A DNA stretch of 64,000 nt. Origin: Ignavibacteriales bacterium. Its GTDB lineage: Bacteria > Bacteroidota > Ignavibacteria > UBA10030. The notes under the pieces are model-generated. The model saw only the letters and a list, made by a program, of their open reading frames with translations, was not told the DNA's origin and searched no databases. Each line of letters starts with the position of its first letter. Within the stretch, counting starts at the first letter, position 1. The DNA lies in the NCBI GenBank assembly GCA_026390575.1, contig JAPLFR010000016.1, positions 660,737-724,736 of the forward strand, written 5' to 3'. The position numbers were made by a program, and so were the translations under genes. Of this stretch, positions 6,939 to 30,474 are shown piece after piece.

Positions 6939-9344
6939 ATGAGTGATACCGCAAAGCCCAATCTGCATATTGAGACATTAGATCATATTCCAAACATTTT
7001 AACGGTTTTGCCGCTTCGGGACGTCGTATTGTTTCCGTATATGATATTTCCCGTTCTTGTTGGAAGAGAGTCATCGCTTCGTGCCGCGAACGAAGCATTG
7101 GAGAGGGGCAAGAATATTCTCCTTGTTGCTCAAAAAAATTCATCGGTTGATGAACCCACAGAAGAAGACGTCTATCGCGAAGGAACCGTAGCAAAGATAC
7201 TTCAAATGCTCAAATTGCCGAATGGCTTGATGAAAATCCTTGTTGACGGCATTGCGCAGGCAAACATCAAGAAATTTATTCCCAATTCTAATTTCCTTGA
7301 AGCAGAAATTATTGTGAATCGCCTCGATCCGCCGGCAGGGCGTGAAATTGACGCGCTTGTTCGGCATGCATCTGCCCTCTTCGCAGAGTATGTGAGACTC
7401 AATCGTAATATTCCGCCCGAAGTAATTATGGCGTACGACGGCATCAAAGAACCGCAGCGGAAGATGTATTACATTGCATCCAATCTTGTCCAAAGCGTGG
7501 ATGTGAAACAACGAATTTTGCAAACACCAGCGCTTCGTGATCAATTGTATGAGCTCTCAAAAATTCTCAGCACAGAAGTAGACATCCTGAAAATAGAACG
7601 AGACATTGATACCAAGGTGCAGGACAATATTCAAAAGTCGCAACGTAAGTTTTTCATTCAGGAACAGATCAGAATTCTTCAAGACGAGCTTGGTGATGAT
7701 GAAGCTTCGCCAGAAATGGTAAAACTCAAAGAACAACTTCTTGCGGCGAACATGCCGAAGGAGGCCAAAGAGAAGGCATTTGAGGAATTTAACAAACTGA
7801 AGAAAACTTCGCCGATGTCTCCTGAGTTTGGCGTAACACGAAACTATCTTGATTGGCTCATTGCGGTGCCATGGCAGAAGCGGACAAAAGATGATTTATT
7901 GATTGCGTATGTGAAGGAAATCCTCGATGCGGATCATTATGGATTGGACAAGCCGAAGGAGCGAATTCTCGAAAATATCGCTGTGCTGAATTTAGTGAAA
8001 GAAATGCGCGGACAAATTCTTTGCTTTGTCGGTCCACCTGGTGTGGGAAAAACATCCTTGGCAAAATCGATTGCGCGTGCGCTGGGCAGAAAGTTTGTAC
8101 GCATTTCGCTCGGCGGTATTCGCGACGAAGCAGAAATTCGAGGTCACAGACGCACGTACATCGGTTCGATGCCCGGCAAAATTATTCAATCGATGAAACG
8201 CGCTGGTGTTGTCAACCCCGTGTTGTTGATGGATGAAGTAGATAAGATGAGTATGGATTTTCGCGGGGATCCATCTGCAGCACTGTTAGAAGTGCTCGAT
8301 CCGGAACAGAACATTGCGTTTAATGATCATTACATTGAAGTCGATTATGATTTATCGAAAGTCATGTTCATCACAACGGCAAATGTTCGCTTTGCCATTC
8401 CAGCCCCTCTGCAAGATCGTATGGAAATTATTGAATTGCCGGGATACCTTGAGTACGAGAAAAAAGAAATTGCCAAACGTCATATTGTAGGCAAACAACT
8501 GAAAGCGCATGGCTTGAAAGCGGATGAAGTTCATTTCGAAGATGATGCAATCACAAAGATTATTCAAGAATATACACGTGAAGCCGGTGTAAGAAATCTA
8601 GAGCGTGAAATTGCATCTATCTGCCGTAAAGTAGCGAAGGAAATGGTGCTGAAGAAACAAACGAATGGAATACAGGAAAAGATAAAAAAGAAAACAAATA
8701 TTCTTGTGCTCTCAGAAAGTGTGGAAAAATATCTTGGTGTTCCAAAATTCCGCACAAAGCCAGCCGAATCACAGCCGCGTATTGGTTCTGTTACAGGCTT
8801 GGCGTGGACGAGCGTTGGCGGTGAGATTCTTAACGTTGATGCGACAATTATGCGCGGTACGGAGCGCCTGACACTTACCGGACAACTAGGCGATGTTATG
8901 AAAGAATCGGCGCAAGCAGCATTGAGCTACATACGCTCGAATGCGAAAAAGCTCGGTGTGAATCCGGAATTTAACAAGAATCGCGAAATTCATATTCATC
9001 TGCCGGAAGGAGCAATTCCTAAAGATGGTCCGTCGGCCGGTGTGACAATGGCTATGGCGATTATATCTGCGGCAAGCAATCGGCCTGCCTGCAACGATGT
9101 AGCGATGACAGGCGAGATTACATTGCGCGGCAACGTTCTCCCTATCGGCGGATTGAACGAGAAACTTCTTGCGGCACAACGCAGCGGTATCAAGACAGTA
9201 TTAATCCCTAAAGAAAACGTGAAAGACCTGACTGAAATTCCAGACAAAGTGAAAGAGGGATTAGCAATCATTCCGATTGAGACGATTGAAGAAGCGATGA
9301 AGTATGTCTTCTCAAGTAAAAAGTCAAAAATCATCAGGAAATAA
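6939..9344 (+). CDS. lon: ATP-dependent protease La (Lon)
   Basis: Lon is the cytoplasmic AAA+ protease that degrades misfolded and regulatory proteins. At 801 aa it has normal length. The N-terminal substrate-binding domain (PLRDVVLFPYMIFPV) comes first. The ATPase follows, with Walker A GPPGVGKTS near residue 364 and Walker B LLMDEVDK. The serine protease domain comes last, with catalytic Ser699 in PKDGPSAGVT and Lys742 in GGLNEKLL. The ATG has only a poor ribosome-binding site. The leader contains a strong promoter followed by a hairpin and U-tract, which suggests regulated expression. dnaX follows 77 bases later. Confidence 0.98.
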   Translation: MSDTAKPNLHIETLDHIPNILTVLPLRDVVLFPYMIFPVLVGRESSLRAANEALERGKNILLVAQKNSSVDEPTEEDVYREGTVAKILQMLKLPNGLMKILVDGIAQANIKKFIPNSNFLEAEIIVNRLDPPAGREIDALVRHASALFAEYVRLNRNIPPEVIMAYDGIKEPQRKMYYIASNLVQSVDVKQRILQTPALRDQLYELSKILSTEVDILKIERDIDTKVQDNIQKSQRKFFIQEQIRILQDELGDDEASPEMVKLKEQLLAANMPKEAKEKAFEEFNKLKKTSPMSPEFGVTRNYLDWLIAVPWQKRTKDDLLIAYVKEILDADHYGLDKPKERILENIAVLNLVKEMRGQILCFVGPPGVGKTSLAKSIARALGRKFVRISLGGIRDEAEIRGHRRTYIGSMPGKIIQSMKRAGVVNPVLLMDEVDKMSMDFRGDPSAALLEVLDPEQNIAFNDHYIEVDYDLSKVMFITTANVRFAIPAPLQDRMEIIELPGYLEYEKKEIAKRHIVGKQLKAHGLKADEVHFEDDAITKIIQEYTREAGVRNLEREIASICRKVAKEMVLKKQTNGIQEKIKKKTNILVLSESVEKYLGVPKFRTKPAESQPRIGSVTGLAWTSVGGEILNVDATIMRGTERLTLTGQLGDVMKESAQAALSYIRSNAKKLGVNPEFNKNREIHIHLPEGAIPKDGPSAGVTMAMAIISAASNRPACNDVAMTGEITLRGNVLPIGGLNEKLLAAQRSGIKTVLIPKENVKDLTEIPDKVKEGLAIIPIETIEEAMKYVFSSKKSKIIRK

Positions 9345-9421
9345 TGCGGACAAAGATTATTCTGGATTTTATGTACTGAATTCTGTATCCTTGAATGAAT
9401 AATATTCCACTGTGAGATGAA

Positions 9422-11206
9422 ATGAGTTATCAAGTAACAGCGCGTAAATGGCGGCCGATGATCTTCGACGATGTCGTTGGTCAAAGCCATGTGACAAATA
9501 CTCTTCGCAATGCGATTGCATCTCACCGCGTTGCGCATGCATATATTTTCAGCGGTACGCGCGGATGCGGAAAAACAACAACAGCCCGTATTCTTGCACG
9601 TTCACTCAACTGTCTCTCCCCTGTTCACCAAAATCCTGATAATACATGTGAAGTCTGCAAGGAAATCATCGACGGACGTGGTCTTGACGTCATTGAGATT
9701 GATGGTGCTTCCAACCGAGGCGTGGAAGAAATCCGAAACCTGCGTGATTCTGTCCGGTATACGCCAACCCGCGGTACATATAAAATCTATATCATCGATG
9801 AAGTACACATGCTGACGAAAGAAGCGTTCAACGCGCTCCTGAAAACGCTGGAAGAACCTCCACCACACGTTGTTTTTATATTTGCTACGACCGAAGTGCA
9901 CAAAGTGCCGATGACGATTCTTTCCCGGTGTCAGCGGTTCGATTTCCGGCGAATTGCCACCGAAGAAATTGTTACGACACTTACAACAATCGCGCATGCA
10001 GAAAATATAACCATCGAAAATGATGCATTAATGGTAATAGCCAAACGTGCCGATGGATCTCTCCGGGATGCACAGAGTATTTTCGACCAAGTACGGTCGT
10101 TCTGCGGCAGTGAGATTAAAACGGCAGAACTGCTCAAGGCGTTCAATGTGGTCGACCAGGAAATTTATTTTCGTGTGTCCGATTTTCTGAAAAGCCACAA
10201 CACACAAAGTGCTATACAGTTGGTTGATGAAGTTATAAAAAGCGGTTATGATTTACGTGAGTTTGTCGGTGGATTAACGGAACATCTTCGCAATTTGCTC
10301 ATTGTGCGCTCCACTGAATCGACTCAGCTCATCGAAGTATCTGAAAATTATAAGAAGCGGTATGAAAAGGAAGCGAGTCAATTCACAGAGCAAGATATCT
10401 TGCGCTATATTAAGCAAACGAACGAATTAGATCAAGCGCTTCGATGGGCAGCACAGCCGCGGTATCGACTTGAAGCTGGACTCATACAAATGGCGAAGAT
10501 GGAAAATTCTGTGCAGATTGGAGAATTGCTTCAACAAATCGAGTTGCTTAAAAAAAAAATAAGCAGTAGCAGCAGTATCAATGTAGCTCCATCGTCTCCA
10601 GACTCCATGCGATACAGTACGCCACCCTCTTCCGATCTAAGAGTTGTTGGCGAGGTTGGTGCGGGATACTTAAAAAGTAAATCTGCAATAAGTTATTCAT
10701 CACTTATTGGTACGGATCTTACAAAGCTAACCGAAGTATCAAAACCTCTTGAAGTGCAGCATTCCATTCAAAGAGTTGCCGAACCGCCAGCAATTATTCA
10801 ATCAGCTTCTGCCGACGAGATAACAGAGCAATGGTCCACGTTCGTTAGTAATGTTTCAAAATCACATATTGCTGTCGGTACGTCATTAACGGAAACGAGT
10901 ATTCTGGATGTTCATAACGGTATGGTGCGTATTTCTTGTCCGGACGACTATCATGTTTCAACACTGAAACGGAATAGAGATTTTCTGGCGAACGTTCTTC
11001 ATCAAGTGATTGGCAAACAGGTTGCAATAGAACCGGTTCTCCGTTCCGATGCAACTATACCGGTAAAAGCGATCTACACAACACCAACCGTATCTGGAGA
11101 TATAAAGAATCTGGATGCGGGAGCTATGCAAAAGTCCCCGCATATAAACGAACATCCAATGCTCACCTTACTCAAACGCGAGTTGGGAGCAGAACGTATT
11201 GAATAG
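9422..11206 (+). CDS. dnaX: DNA polymerase III subunit gamma/tau
   Basis: DnaX is the clamp-loader ATPase and, as full-length tau, links the clamp loader to the polymerase and helicase. The 594-aa product has Walker A GTRGCGKT at residues 45-52 (same numbering as E. coli), a zinc site with C..CEVCKEI, the DEVHMLTKEAFNALLKTLEE block and sensor residues. Residues 377-379 are Lys-Lys-Lys, encoded in a run of ten A (10550-10559). Both other frames stop at once after it, so slippage would yield a gamma-like protein of about 380 residues lacking the C-terminal tau region. The linker after it is Ser/Pro-rich and low in complexity. Confidence 0.97.
   Translation: MSYQVTARKWRPMIFDDVVGQSHVTNTLRNAIASHRVAHAYIFSGTRGCGKTTTARILARSLNCLSPVHQNPDNTCEVCKEIIDGRGLDVIEIDGASNRGVEEIRNLRDSVRYTPTRGTYKIYIIDEVHMLTKEAFNALLKTLEEPPPHVVFIFATTEVHKVPMTILSRCQRFDFRRIATEEIVTTLTTIAHAENITIENDALMVIAKRADGSLRDAQSIFDQVRSFCGSEIKTAELLKAFNVVDQEIYFRVSDFLKSHNTQSAIQLVDEVIKSGYDLREFVGGLTEHLRNLLIVRSTESTQLIEVSENYKKRYEKEASQFTEQDILRYIKQTNELDQALRWAAQPRYRLEAGLIQMAKMENSVQIGELLQQIELLKKKISSSSSINVAPSSPDSMRYSTPPSSDLRVVGEVGAGYLKSKSAISYSSLIGTDLTKLTEVSKPLEVQHSIQRVAEPPAIIQSASADEITEQWSTFVSNVSKSHIAVGTSLTETSILDVHNGMVRISCPDDYHVSTLKRNRDFLANVLHQVIGKQVAIEPVLRSDATIPVKAIYTTPTVSGDIKNLDAGAMQKSPHINEHPMLTLLKRELGAERIE
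10550..10569 (+). promoter_or_regulatory. Probable slippage/frameshift site in dnaX
   Basis: Ten consecutive A (10550-10559) start on a codon boundary. In the +1 frame TAA occurs immediately (10560-10562); in the -1 frame TAG follows at 10567-10569. Slippage of polymerase or ribosome in either direction would therefore truncate tau to a gamma-like protein ending just after the ATPase and collar domains. Thermus dnaX uses a comparable A-run and E. coli uses A AAA AAG. A GGAG lies 27 bases upstream; no clear downstream stem is visible. Confidence 0.65.
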
Positions 11207-11207
11207 C

Positions 11208-11236
11208 TTGATTCTCTTCATGGAATCTTCTACCTT
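11208..11236 (+). promoter_or_regulatory. Candidate promoter for the PorV-like gene
   Basis: TTGATT (11208-11213) and TACCTT (11231-11236) are spaced by 17 nt. The -35 equals that found before pta and the DUF177 gene; the -10 differs from TATATT at two positions. It overlaps the dnaX end (11206) by position only. Transcription from it would give a leader of about 170 bases before the ATG at 11413. Confidence 0.35.
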
Positions 11237-11358
11237 ATAACAGAACGAAAGGAATACGCATATAGACAATTGTGAGAGAGTTGTGCTGTGCTGTTGTTGT
11301 GCATCGTAACTTATCTCGAACGTTGTCATCGACCAAATCACGCAACGATAGAGAAAGA

Positions 11359-11400
11359 GTTTGGTCATCAAACCCCGGCGCACATTGTCGGGTTTTTTGT
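11359..11400 (+). terminator. Terminator with an overlapping alternative hairpin before the PorV-like gene
   Basis: AACCC (11371-11375) pairs with GGGTT (11390-11394), extended by one G-C pair across a bulge, and runs into TTTTTT-GT, as in an intrinsic terminator. A second hairpin, GTTTG (11359-11363) with CAAAC (11369-11373), uses three of the same bases, so the two cannot form together. The terminator ends 12 bases before the start codon of the next gene. It either ends dnaX transcription or forms an attenuator. Confidence 0.55.
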
Positions 11401-11412
11401 CTTAGGTGGAAT

Positions 11413-12429
11413 ATGAAGAATCTAAAGGTACTTCTACTCGTGATGCTTATTGGACAATGCGCATTGTCTCAGCATATTGCAAAATATGCAGGAGAGTTTC
11501 TTTCCATTGGTGTTGGTGGCCGCGCCTTGGGGCTTGGTGGTGCGTATGCAGCGCTCGCGAATGATGCTTCGGCCGGCTATTGGAATCCGGCAGCACTTGC
11601 ACGCATCGATTATCCCGAGGTGATGCTCATGCACGAGGAAGGGTTCGGCAGTTTGCTGAACTATGATTTCGTTGCCGCGGCAATTCCTTATAGTACAAAT
11701 GCAACACTTGGTGTAAGTGTGATGCGTCTTGGTGTAGATGGCATCCCCGATACACGCAACGCTTGGGAAGATAGAAATAATAATGGTCTTTTTGATAGCG
11801 GCGATTATATCAATCCAGATAAAATTTCGTATTTCAATTCAGCCGATTGGGCAATATTCTTTTCCTATGCACAACGTACTTCTTCAAGTTTAATGTTTGG
11901 TCTCAATCTCAAAGTGCTTCGGCGTAATTTGGCAGAATATTCCGCAACAGGTATCGGCTTTGATATTGGAATGCTCTACTCTCCAGCGAATAATTGGTAC
12001 GTTGCGGTAAATGCACAGGACATTACGACAACACTGGTCGCATGGTCCACCGGTACAAACGAATTAATCTCGCCAACATTAAAAGTAGGAACTGCATATT
12101 TTATAGATCTTTTTGGCGGACGATTTGCACCAACTGCAGACATCGACGTTCGGTTAGAAAATCGTCAATTCGCTTCTATAGCCCATCTCGGCCCTGTTAG
12201 TTTTGATCCACACCTGGGCCTTGAATTCGATTTCAAAAAATCTATTGCACTGCGTGTTGGGTACAATGATGTAAAGCAAATGACGCTTGGCGCTGGAATT
12301 CATCTGCGTAAGCTCGATATCGATTACTCATTTGCTCGATTCGACAAAGAGAATGACCTTGGAGATACACATCGAATTTCGCTGCGCTTGATATTTCAAG
12401 AAGAACGTCTCACAAGAGCGAAAGAGTAA
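11413..12429 (+). CDS. PorV/PorQ-like outer-membrane beta-barrel protein
   Basis: The 338-aa product begins with a signal peptide (MKNLKVLLLVMLIGQCALSQ). It continues with the family hallmark FLSIGVGGRALGLGGAYAAL then DASAGYWNPAALARI, as in PorV/PorQ and the UPF0164/FadL-like barrels of Bacteroidota. Alternating amphipathic strands run to the C-terminus, which ends in a typical barrel strand (HRISLRLIF). PorV shuttles type IX cargo and PorQ is an outer-membrane partner; which role applies here is not clear. The ATG at 11413 has an AGGTGGA ribosome-binding site and starts exactly at the signal peptide. A GTG start 47 codons upstream would cross the terminator and is unlikely. Confidence 0.85.
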   Translation: MKNLKVLLLVMLIGQCALSQHIAKYAGEFLSIGVGGRALGLGGAYAALANDASAGYWNPAALARIDYPEVMLMHEEGFGSLLNYDFVAAAIPYSTNATLGVSVMRLGVDGIPDTRNAWEDRNNNGLFDSGDYINPDKISYFNSADWAIFFSYAQRTSSSLMFGLNLKVLRRNLAEYSATGIGFDIGMLYSPANNWYVAVNAQDITTTLVAWSTGTNELISPTLKVGTAYFIDLFGGRFAPTADIDVRLENRQFASIAHLGPVSFDPHLGLEFDFKKSIALRVGYNDVKQMTLGAGIHLRKLDIDYSFARFDKENDLGDTHRISLRLIFQEERLTRAKE

Positions 12430-29628: not shown

Positions 29629-30474
29629 TCAGTAAAACTTATGGAATCCGCTAAAGAAAATATTGATAATGGTCATTGAAAAGATTGAGATCAGAAAACC
29701 GATGATGGAAAGAATCATTACCTTGCGGCCTTTCCATCCGTATCGTGTTTTCGCAATGACGAGGAATCCGTACATAGCCCAGACAAGTATGGTGCCTATG
29801 AGTTTAGGATCGAAGTAGTTTGGATTGGTGATTGCGCGGTTCAGCCAGATGAATCCGAAAAGAATAGCAATGCTGAGAAGTAAAAATGCAAGCTTCACAG
29901 CGGTGAAGGTCATTCGTTCCAAAGTCTCAAGCGTTGGAAGTTTTTTATAGACGACGCCAAACCGTGTCGCTTTCATTTCGTGGTAAAGCATCAGATACAT
30001 CAAACCATAAGCACCGGCAATAGTGATAGCGGAGTACCCGAGGAGCGCAGAACTCACATGGACGCCAAAGAGAGGGCTGCGGAGAATTTCCGGAACTTCC
30101 GGTGTATCTTTGATAAAGAGAGATGAAGCAAGCTGGAAAAAAAAAGCGATGTTGAGAATGAAATAGCCTGTTTCTTTGTGCCGCGAACGAAGTTCTATGA
30201 CAAAGTATGTAATGGTAATCGAGCAAGCCAGCACGGTGAATATCTCAAATATTGTGGTGACAGGCGGGTGTCGAAATAGTATTATTCTGTTTGCAAGAGA
30301 AAGAAGGTGAAGCACTATAGTGCCAATTAATATTGGTGTTTTAGCATGCTTCGCCCAGAGTTGATCGGCAAAGAATGCTTTACCATATGTCCACACCACG
30401 GCGAAATAAAAAAAGGGCAAAGAGTAATTAAATATATTGCTCACGGCGGTAATCCATAGTCTATGTTCATTCAA
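29629..30474 (-). CDS. HemX/CcsA-like multi-pass membrane protein
   Basis: The 281-aa protein has about eight hydrophobic helices and belongs to the cytochrome c assembly (CcsA/ResC/HemX) family. Conserved histidines appear in LFRHPPVT and GVHVSSALLGYSA. The tryptophan-rich WWD loop of true heme exporters is degenerate: the corresponding segment reads IWLNRAITNPNYFDPK, as in HemX-type proteins that affect glutamyl-tRNA reductase levels. Its position directly before hemA favours the HemX role over cytochrome c maturation. The start is TTG with no good ribosome-binding site, so the exact start is uncertain. Confidence 0.8.
   Translation of the reverse strand: MNEHRLWITAVSNIFNYSLPFFYFAVVWTYGKAFFADQLWAKHAKTPILIGTIVLHLLSLANRIILFRHPPVTTIFEIFTVLACSITITYFVIELRSRHKETGYFILNIAFFFQLASSLFIKDTPEVPEILRSPLFGVHVSSALLGYSAITIAGAYGLMYLMLYHEMKATRFGVVYKKLPTLETLERMTFTAVKLAFLLLSIAILFGFIWLNRAITNPNYFDPKLIGTILVWAMYGFLVIAKTRYGWKGRKVMILSIIGFLISIFSMTIINIFFSGFHKFY

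Follow-up and report, generated by a model that had tools for sequence, protein, structure and literature searches.

The dnaX locus

The window (the whole stretch of 64,000 nucleotides that was analysed) carries a dnaX gene between a Lon protease gene upstream (6939-9344; PF05362, PF02190) and an open reading frame downstream (11272-12429). The identity of DnaX was established from matches of the 594-aa product to PF13177, PF22608, PF12169 and TIGR02397. A scan of 9300-11420 for promoter-like and terminator-like sites gave 2 of each, where shuffles average 4.5 and 1.6, respectively; one of the terminator-like sites lies past the dnaX end, at 11374-11392.

A run of ten adenines (A10) begins right after codon 376, within the local sequence TTG CTT / AAA AAA AAA ATA AGC AGT AGC, and its position on a codon boundary, first noticed in a sequence-only reading of this DNA, was confirmed. 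The zero frame, which encodes tau, remains open for 214 codons beyond the run. Both shifted frames are closed by nearby stops, as had been read from the letters: one A fewer gives KKK-stop, and one A more gives KKKNKQ-stop, with the TAG six residues on. Feature coordinates are collected in Table 1.

Table 1. Coordinates, in window positions, of dnaX, its A10 run and the surrounding features
Feature	Position	Strand	Remarks
dnaX, tau subunit of DNA polymerase III, zero frame	9422..11206	+	594-aa ORF; TIGR02397, Pfam
Clamp-loader domain III, PF12169, residues 243-372	10148..10537	+	Four residues between its end and A10
Candidate A10 slippage run, spanning codons 377-379 plus the initial A of codon 380 (ATA)	10550..10559	+	
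TAA stop met directly when the run reads A9 (or A12)	10560..10562	+	Predicted product 379 (or 380) aa
TAG stop when the run reads A11 or after a ribosomal -1 shift	10567..10569	+	Predicted product ~382 aa
Tau-specific linker and C-terminal region, absent from the predicted short product	10560..11206	+	
Weak DnaX_C match, PF20964	10802..11047	+	E 0.0032, 17.9 bits; cut-off of 26.2 not reached

Because domain III ends at residue 372, a slipped transcript would encode the clamp-loader core and none of the tau tail. The earlier prediction of a gamma-like product of about 380 residues, ending where the tau region starts, corresponds to 379-382 aa. Gamma/tau core structures, which we take to be those of E. 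coli, have chains of similar length (368, 373 and 376 aa for 1xxi, 1jr3 and 3glh), the match covering residues 1-282.

Long A-runs in the window and genome

By base composition alone the A10 is unremarkable. The window has 3 positions with a word of nine adenines; dinucleotide shuffles have 7.3 on average, and 85 of 100 shuffles reach 3 or more. The only other A9 of the window is at 30137-30145. The run was judged to be more than chance because it is conserved in relatives.

Across the genome (3.82 Mb), 74 A9 word positions were counted, which collapse to 66 runs; five of these have ten or more adenines. Scaling of the window shuffles would lead to roughly 436 A9 words, so long A-runs appear to be avoided in this genome. 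In PMC1088944, avoidance of homopolymers is described as evident from a length of nine in many genomes.

Of the four runs of at least ten adenines besides that in dnaX, one is found toward the 3' end of a ROK-type kinase gene and one in a TPR-like gene, both in open frames and both genes named by eye. A third is outside any open frame longer than 100 codons, and the fourth, an A13, reaches into the upstream end of an open frame on the antisense strand, at a point before the first ATG of that frame. The ROK-type gene (A10 at L196:1059-1068) served as the single control gene; orthologues were found in 4 of the 5 other genus genomes, with no match in G002. At the aligned site they have A7 (G001 and G003), A5 (G004) and A4 (G005), such that the A10 of this one gene is not conserved. 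Elsewhere in the ROK-type loci, an A8 is present in G004 and G001, and an A9 about 28 bases downstream in G003. The second candidate control, the TPR-like gene (L197), gave no match in the five other genus genomes at a cut-off of E 1e-60. Two ROK-type paralogues (L266 and L269) have one in-frame TAA within the match.

Conservation in the genus and order

The sequence-only reading had proposed that absence of the run from close relatives would count against slippage. The run proved to be retained: an A10 with an immediate TAA was present in all 6 genus genomes examined (in G005, read on one of two contigs, L057). Among 55 order dnaX sites, 36 had A9, 7 had A10, 2 had A8 and 10 were without a run. 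The 55 sites derive from 61 order genomes; three genomes (G007, G018 and G021) had no DnaX-grade match, two loci (L055 and L060) end before the site, and the G005 gene, which lies on two contigs and was read by eye, was excluded. The break between the two contigs of the G005 gene, C144 and C74 (L012 and L057), falls precisely on the A-run, and the overlapping ends contain mismatches, perhaps owing to run-length heterogeneity or read errors. In a further gene (L059 of G057) the A10 is present and the match is broken between residues 59 and 96, perhaps an assembly error.

Expected counts were obtained from a synonymous null in which each protein is fixed and codons are redrawn from the usage of its own gene. 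A run of at least nine adenines occurs at or near the site in 43 of the 55 order genes, against 10.4 expected, a null that keeps the lysines and is in that sense conservative, yet the lysines kept may have been created by the run itself. Order relatives share ancestry, and the 43 genes therefore amount to fewer than 43 independent cases. The remaining 29,759 codons of the 55 genes hold just 2 such runs, each an A9 at codon 496, within the part encoding the tau C-terminus, in the close relatives L035 and L036.

The run persists in four genes that prefer AAG (L007, L008, L023 and L040; AAA share 0.16-0.26). In three f6 genes it is displaced downstream, by 7 codons in L046 and L047 and by 9 in L049, and the residues around it are different. 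In-frame runs of at least nine adenines in the order use phases 0, 1 and 2 in 29, 0 and 13 cases.

Stops in the shifted frames

A stop in the -1 frame within 3 codons was found in 37 of the 45 order genes with A8 or longer, as compared to 15.8 under the synonymous null and 6.7 at other linker positions. The corresponding count in the +1 frame was 12 of 45 (8.4 synonymous, 7.5 at other linker positions), and 5 of these 12 belong to the window's genus. The same test was applied to class and phylum genes (27 usable runs of 75 loci) and to a set of named loci (19 of 78), split genes being excluded from both. Stops in the -1 frame followed 23/27 and 16/19 of these runs, and stops in the +1 frame 8/27 (6.6-7.1 expected) and 7/19 (4.0 expected).

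In order sequences, AAA AAA AAA followed by CTT and then AA, AG or GA results in a -1 stop one codon on. The immediate +1 TAA of the window's genus arises from ATA and the A after it (6/6), and it is in this genus only that +1 stops crowd the run. Overall, any enrichment of +1 stops is weak at best, and outside the genus the consistently close stop is that of the -1 frame only.

Spread outside the order and the split layout

Outside the order, 125 dnaX genes were classified, the best-scoring plus a hand-picked spread from 275 matching genomes (290 less 15), and hence not a random sample. Of these, 69 carry A9-A11 in the linker, 4 carry A7 and 52 have no run. In 18 of the 69 the layout is inverted (split): the zero frame ends 0-5 codons past the run, and tau is carried by the -1 frame, which has no stop for 188-237 codons. 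Among all 258 classified dnaX loci there are 23 split genes, every one of which goes in the -1 direction. Duplicates (L061, L141-L149 and L151) were dropped from the classification, and L122 was too short.

For the 107 non-split genes outside the order, runs of at least nine adenines were found in 51 against 18.2 expected, A8 in 0 against 9.3 and A7 in 2 against 5.9, counted over a search stretch that differs slightly from that of the layout classification. The conserved part of the non-split genes outside the order, 35,845 codons in all, contained no run of nine or more. In-frame runs of this length outside the order occupy phases 0, 1 and 2 in 10, 20 and 21 cases, and their positions shift. 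On a quick FastTree tree of 257 N-terminal parts, run presence (A8 or longer) changes at least 36 times, layout 13 times and phase 34 times.

Named loci in Bacteroidota, Chlorobiota or Ignavibacteriota carry an A9-A11 run in 23 of 30 cases, including Pedobacter, Rufibacter, Mucilaginibacter and two Ignavibacteria MAGs. Named loci of other groups, three of the 48 being without a given phylum, carry a run in 4 of 48 cases (three A8, one A9). These named loci may repeat genomes of the outside-order set, L061 being the one that was checked.

Proposed mechanism

We propose that the A10 is probably a programmed transcriptional slippage site that gives a gamma-like clamp loader beside tau. RNA polymerase would stutter on the run and produce dnaX mRNAs with A9, A10, A11 and other run lengths. 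Transcripts with A10 (and A13) would yield tau, 594 aa in length. Other run lengths would lead to a stop directly or within a few codons, and thus to a gamma-like protein of ~379-382 aa that retains domains I-III of the clamp loader and lacks both the linker and the C-terminal region of tau. The occurrence of slippage, its efficiency and the entry of the short protein into the clamp loader are what we infer from the sequence.

The foremost alternative, which we regard as unlikely, is ribosomal -1 frameshifting on A_AAA_AAA or A_AAA_AAG as in E. coli dnaX, the long run being merely very slippery. The enrichment of -1 stops, with +1 stops hardly enriched, and the -1 shift required by all 23 split genes are as ribosomal -1 frameshifting would give, and speak against the transcriptional reading. 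An in-phase A_AAA_AAA is contained in any A9 and is present in the window's run, and several order genes have TTA AAA AAA AAG, giving the E. coli-like A_AAA_AAG. Split dnaX genes with A8 and A7 are reported for two Chlorobium species in the dnaX material of PMC3711429, and E. coli-like signals for one Chlorobium dnaX in that of PMC5009743. One-directional clusters are taken as ribosomal frameshifting in PMC3711429, the dnaX section of which assigns A10 genes to transcription. According to the passages of PMC6260861 on A-runs, A7-A11 in lacZ give insertions at least twice as frequently as deletions (a result cited there), and Thermus dnaX in E. coli slips in both directions with multiple insertions predominant. 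Given this insertion bias of RNA polymerase, -1 stops are predicted by transcriptional slippage too.

A shorter in-phase run would suffice for a ribosomal shift, yet A7-A8 lie below expectation and A9-A11 dominate. Nor was there an overall signal of ribosomal stimulators, in the form of an upstream Shine-Dalgarno-like stretch or a downstream stem beyond control. For Shine-Dalgarno-like stretches the mean rank in the order was 0.52 (null 0.5), with 1 of 45 genes at -6 kcal/mol or better, and mean ranks were 0.48 in the other in-frame genes and 0.41 in split genes; such a stretch at -6 kcal/mol or better is present in 9 of 72 in-frame genes outside the order, which favors a ribosomal shift there. 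For downstream stems the mean z in the order was -0.15 as compared to 0.13 in the control window, with 3/45 genes below -2 (control 2/45); the values were -0.42 against -0.33 in the other in-frame genes and -0.48 against -0.11 in split genes. Split genes seem to lean slightly toward stimulators in both measures. In the window's dnaX itself, Shine-Dalgarno pairing stood at -2.5 kcal/mol, with a rank of 0.27 within that gene's positions, and the stem z was +0.95, such that neither a stimulatory Shine-Dalgarno nor a stem-loop was recognized, and an Rfam scan of 9000-12000 returned no match at E up to 1. The earlier remark that no clear stimulatory stem is present holds, and extends to the Shine-Dalgarno signal.

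Transcriptional slippage is favored over ribosomal slippage because A7-A8 are nearly absent and because all three phases are used outside the order, and what the sequence-only reading had called the simpler reading is supported to that extent. A long homopolymer, a free phase and no ribosomal stimulators are the three needs of transcriptional slippage, and the data are consistent with all of them, phase 1 being unused in the order. The length floor is not absolute, as the two order genes with A8 illustrate, and the run is missing from 10/55 genes in the order and from 52/125 of those sampled outside it.

It is very improbable that the run merely reflects a protein-level LKKK motif at the end of domain III, written with AAA by habit, with any slippage incidental. 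The LKKK motif recurs widely in the order, and the window's dnaX uses AAA for lysine more often than AAG (21 against 10). With the protein fixed, however, the excess of observed over expected runs persists, elsewhere in the phylum the run shifts its place, phase and encoded residues, and -1 stops cluster past it; the motif alone was rejected on the fixed-protein count. An explanation by slippage during replication, phase variation in the DNA or an error of sequencing, in place of programmed decoding, is hardly credible. A-runs are mutable and the G005 assembly breaks at the run, but the A10 is kept throughout the genus genomes examined, and of the 45 order genes with a run, 44 have a zero frame that continues without a stop for 60 codons or more beyond it (43 codons in the other). 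Phase variation was rejected, and so was annotation error.

Wider reading

For Bacteroidota and sister lineages, we lean modestly toward the view that gamma is most often made by a transcriptional slippage switch in the dnaX linker, and that this switch has been repeatedly lost, regained, moved and flipped between layouts. A mechanism that yields both frames would readily tolerate flips between tau by standard reading and tau by slippage, and the observed interchange of layouts fits such a process. The need for gamma beside tau has long been debated, as set out in PMC5009743. If the wider view is true, a switch kept or regained across many families with interchanging layouts would mean that there is selection for possessing both forms. 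Many natural cases would then also be available in which recoding to AAG, with the protein unchanged, tests the need for gamma directly.

Comparison with known systems

A literature search, mostly of open papers without their supplements, returned nothing on dnaX under the stem Ignavibacteri, and within the same scope the layout of zero-frame tau with A9-A10 across an order, its phylum spread and its movement were not found in print.

In E. coli, gamma is made beside tau from one gene by a -1 ribosomal frameshift at A_AAA_AAG with a Shine-Dalgarno and a stem-loop (described in the dnaX parts of PMC5009743 and PMC3711429). The window's dnaX likewise has a slippery heptamer in phase, but its run is longer and the stimulators were not found.

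The Chlorobi, of the FCB group, are near kin. In the GeneTack survey of 2013 (PMC3711429), the dnaX section lists 17 split dnaX genes, 12 of them with A7-A10, including Chloroherpeton and Chlorobium, and proposes transcriptional realignment. These genes share with the window an A-run at the gamma/tau junction. They differ in that their zero frame is closed by a stop and their tau depends on slippage, whereas in the window tau is the zero-frame product and the split layout does not apply.

The known model is Thermus thermophilus dnaX, for which the relevant parts of PMC1088944 and PMC5009743 describe an A-run, zero-frame tau and close stops in both shifted frames. The window's gene has each of these features, with a run of at least nine adenines past the clamp-loader core that is conserved beyond codon-usage chance. 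Transcriptional slippage in Thermus occurs on an A9 and gives gamma and tau at ~1:1, whereas the window's gene has an A10. The Thermus run lies seven-eighths of the way through the gene, and that of the window right after domain III, at residue 377 of 594. The two belong to different lineages, and slippage in the window's gene is a prediction from sequence. Slippage in dnaX is therefore of a known kind, given Thermus and the split dnaX genes of Chlorobi, and it is the breadth described here that may be new.
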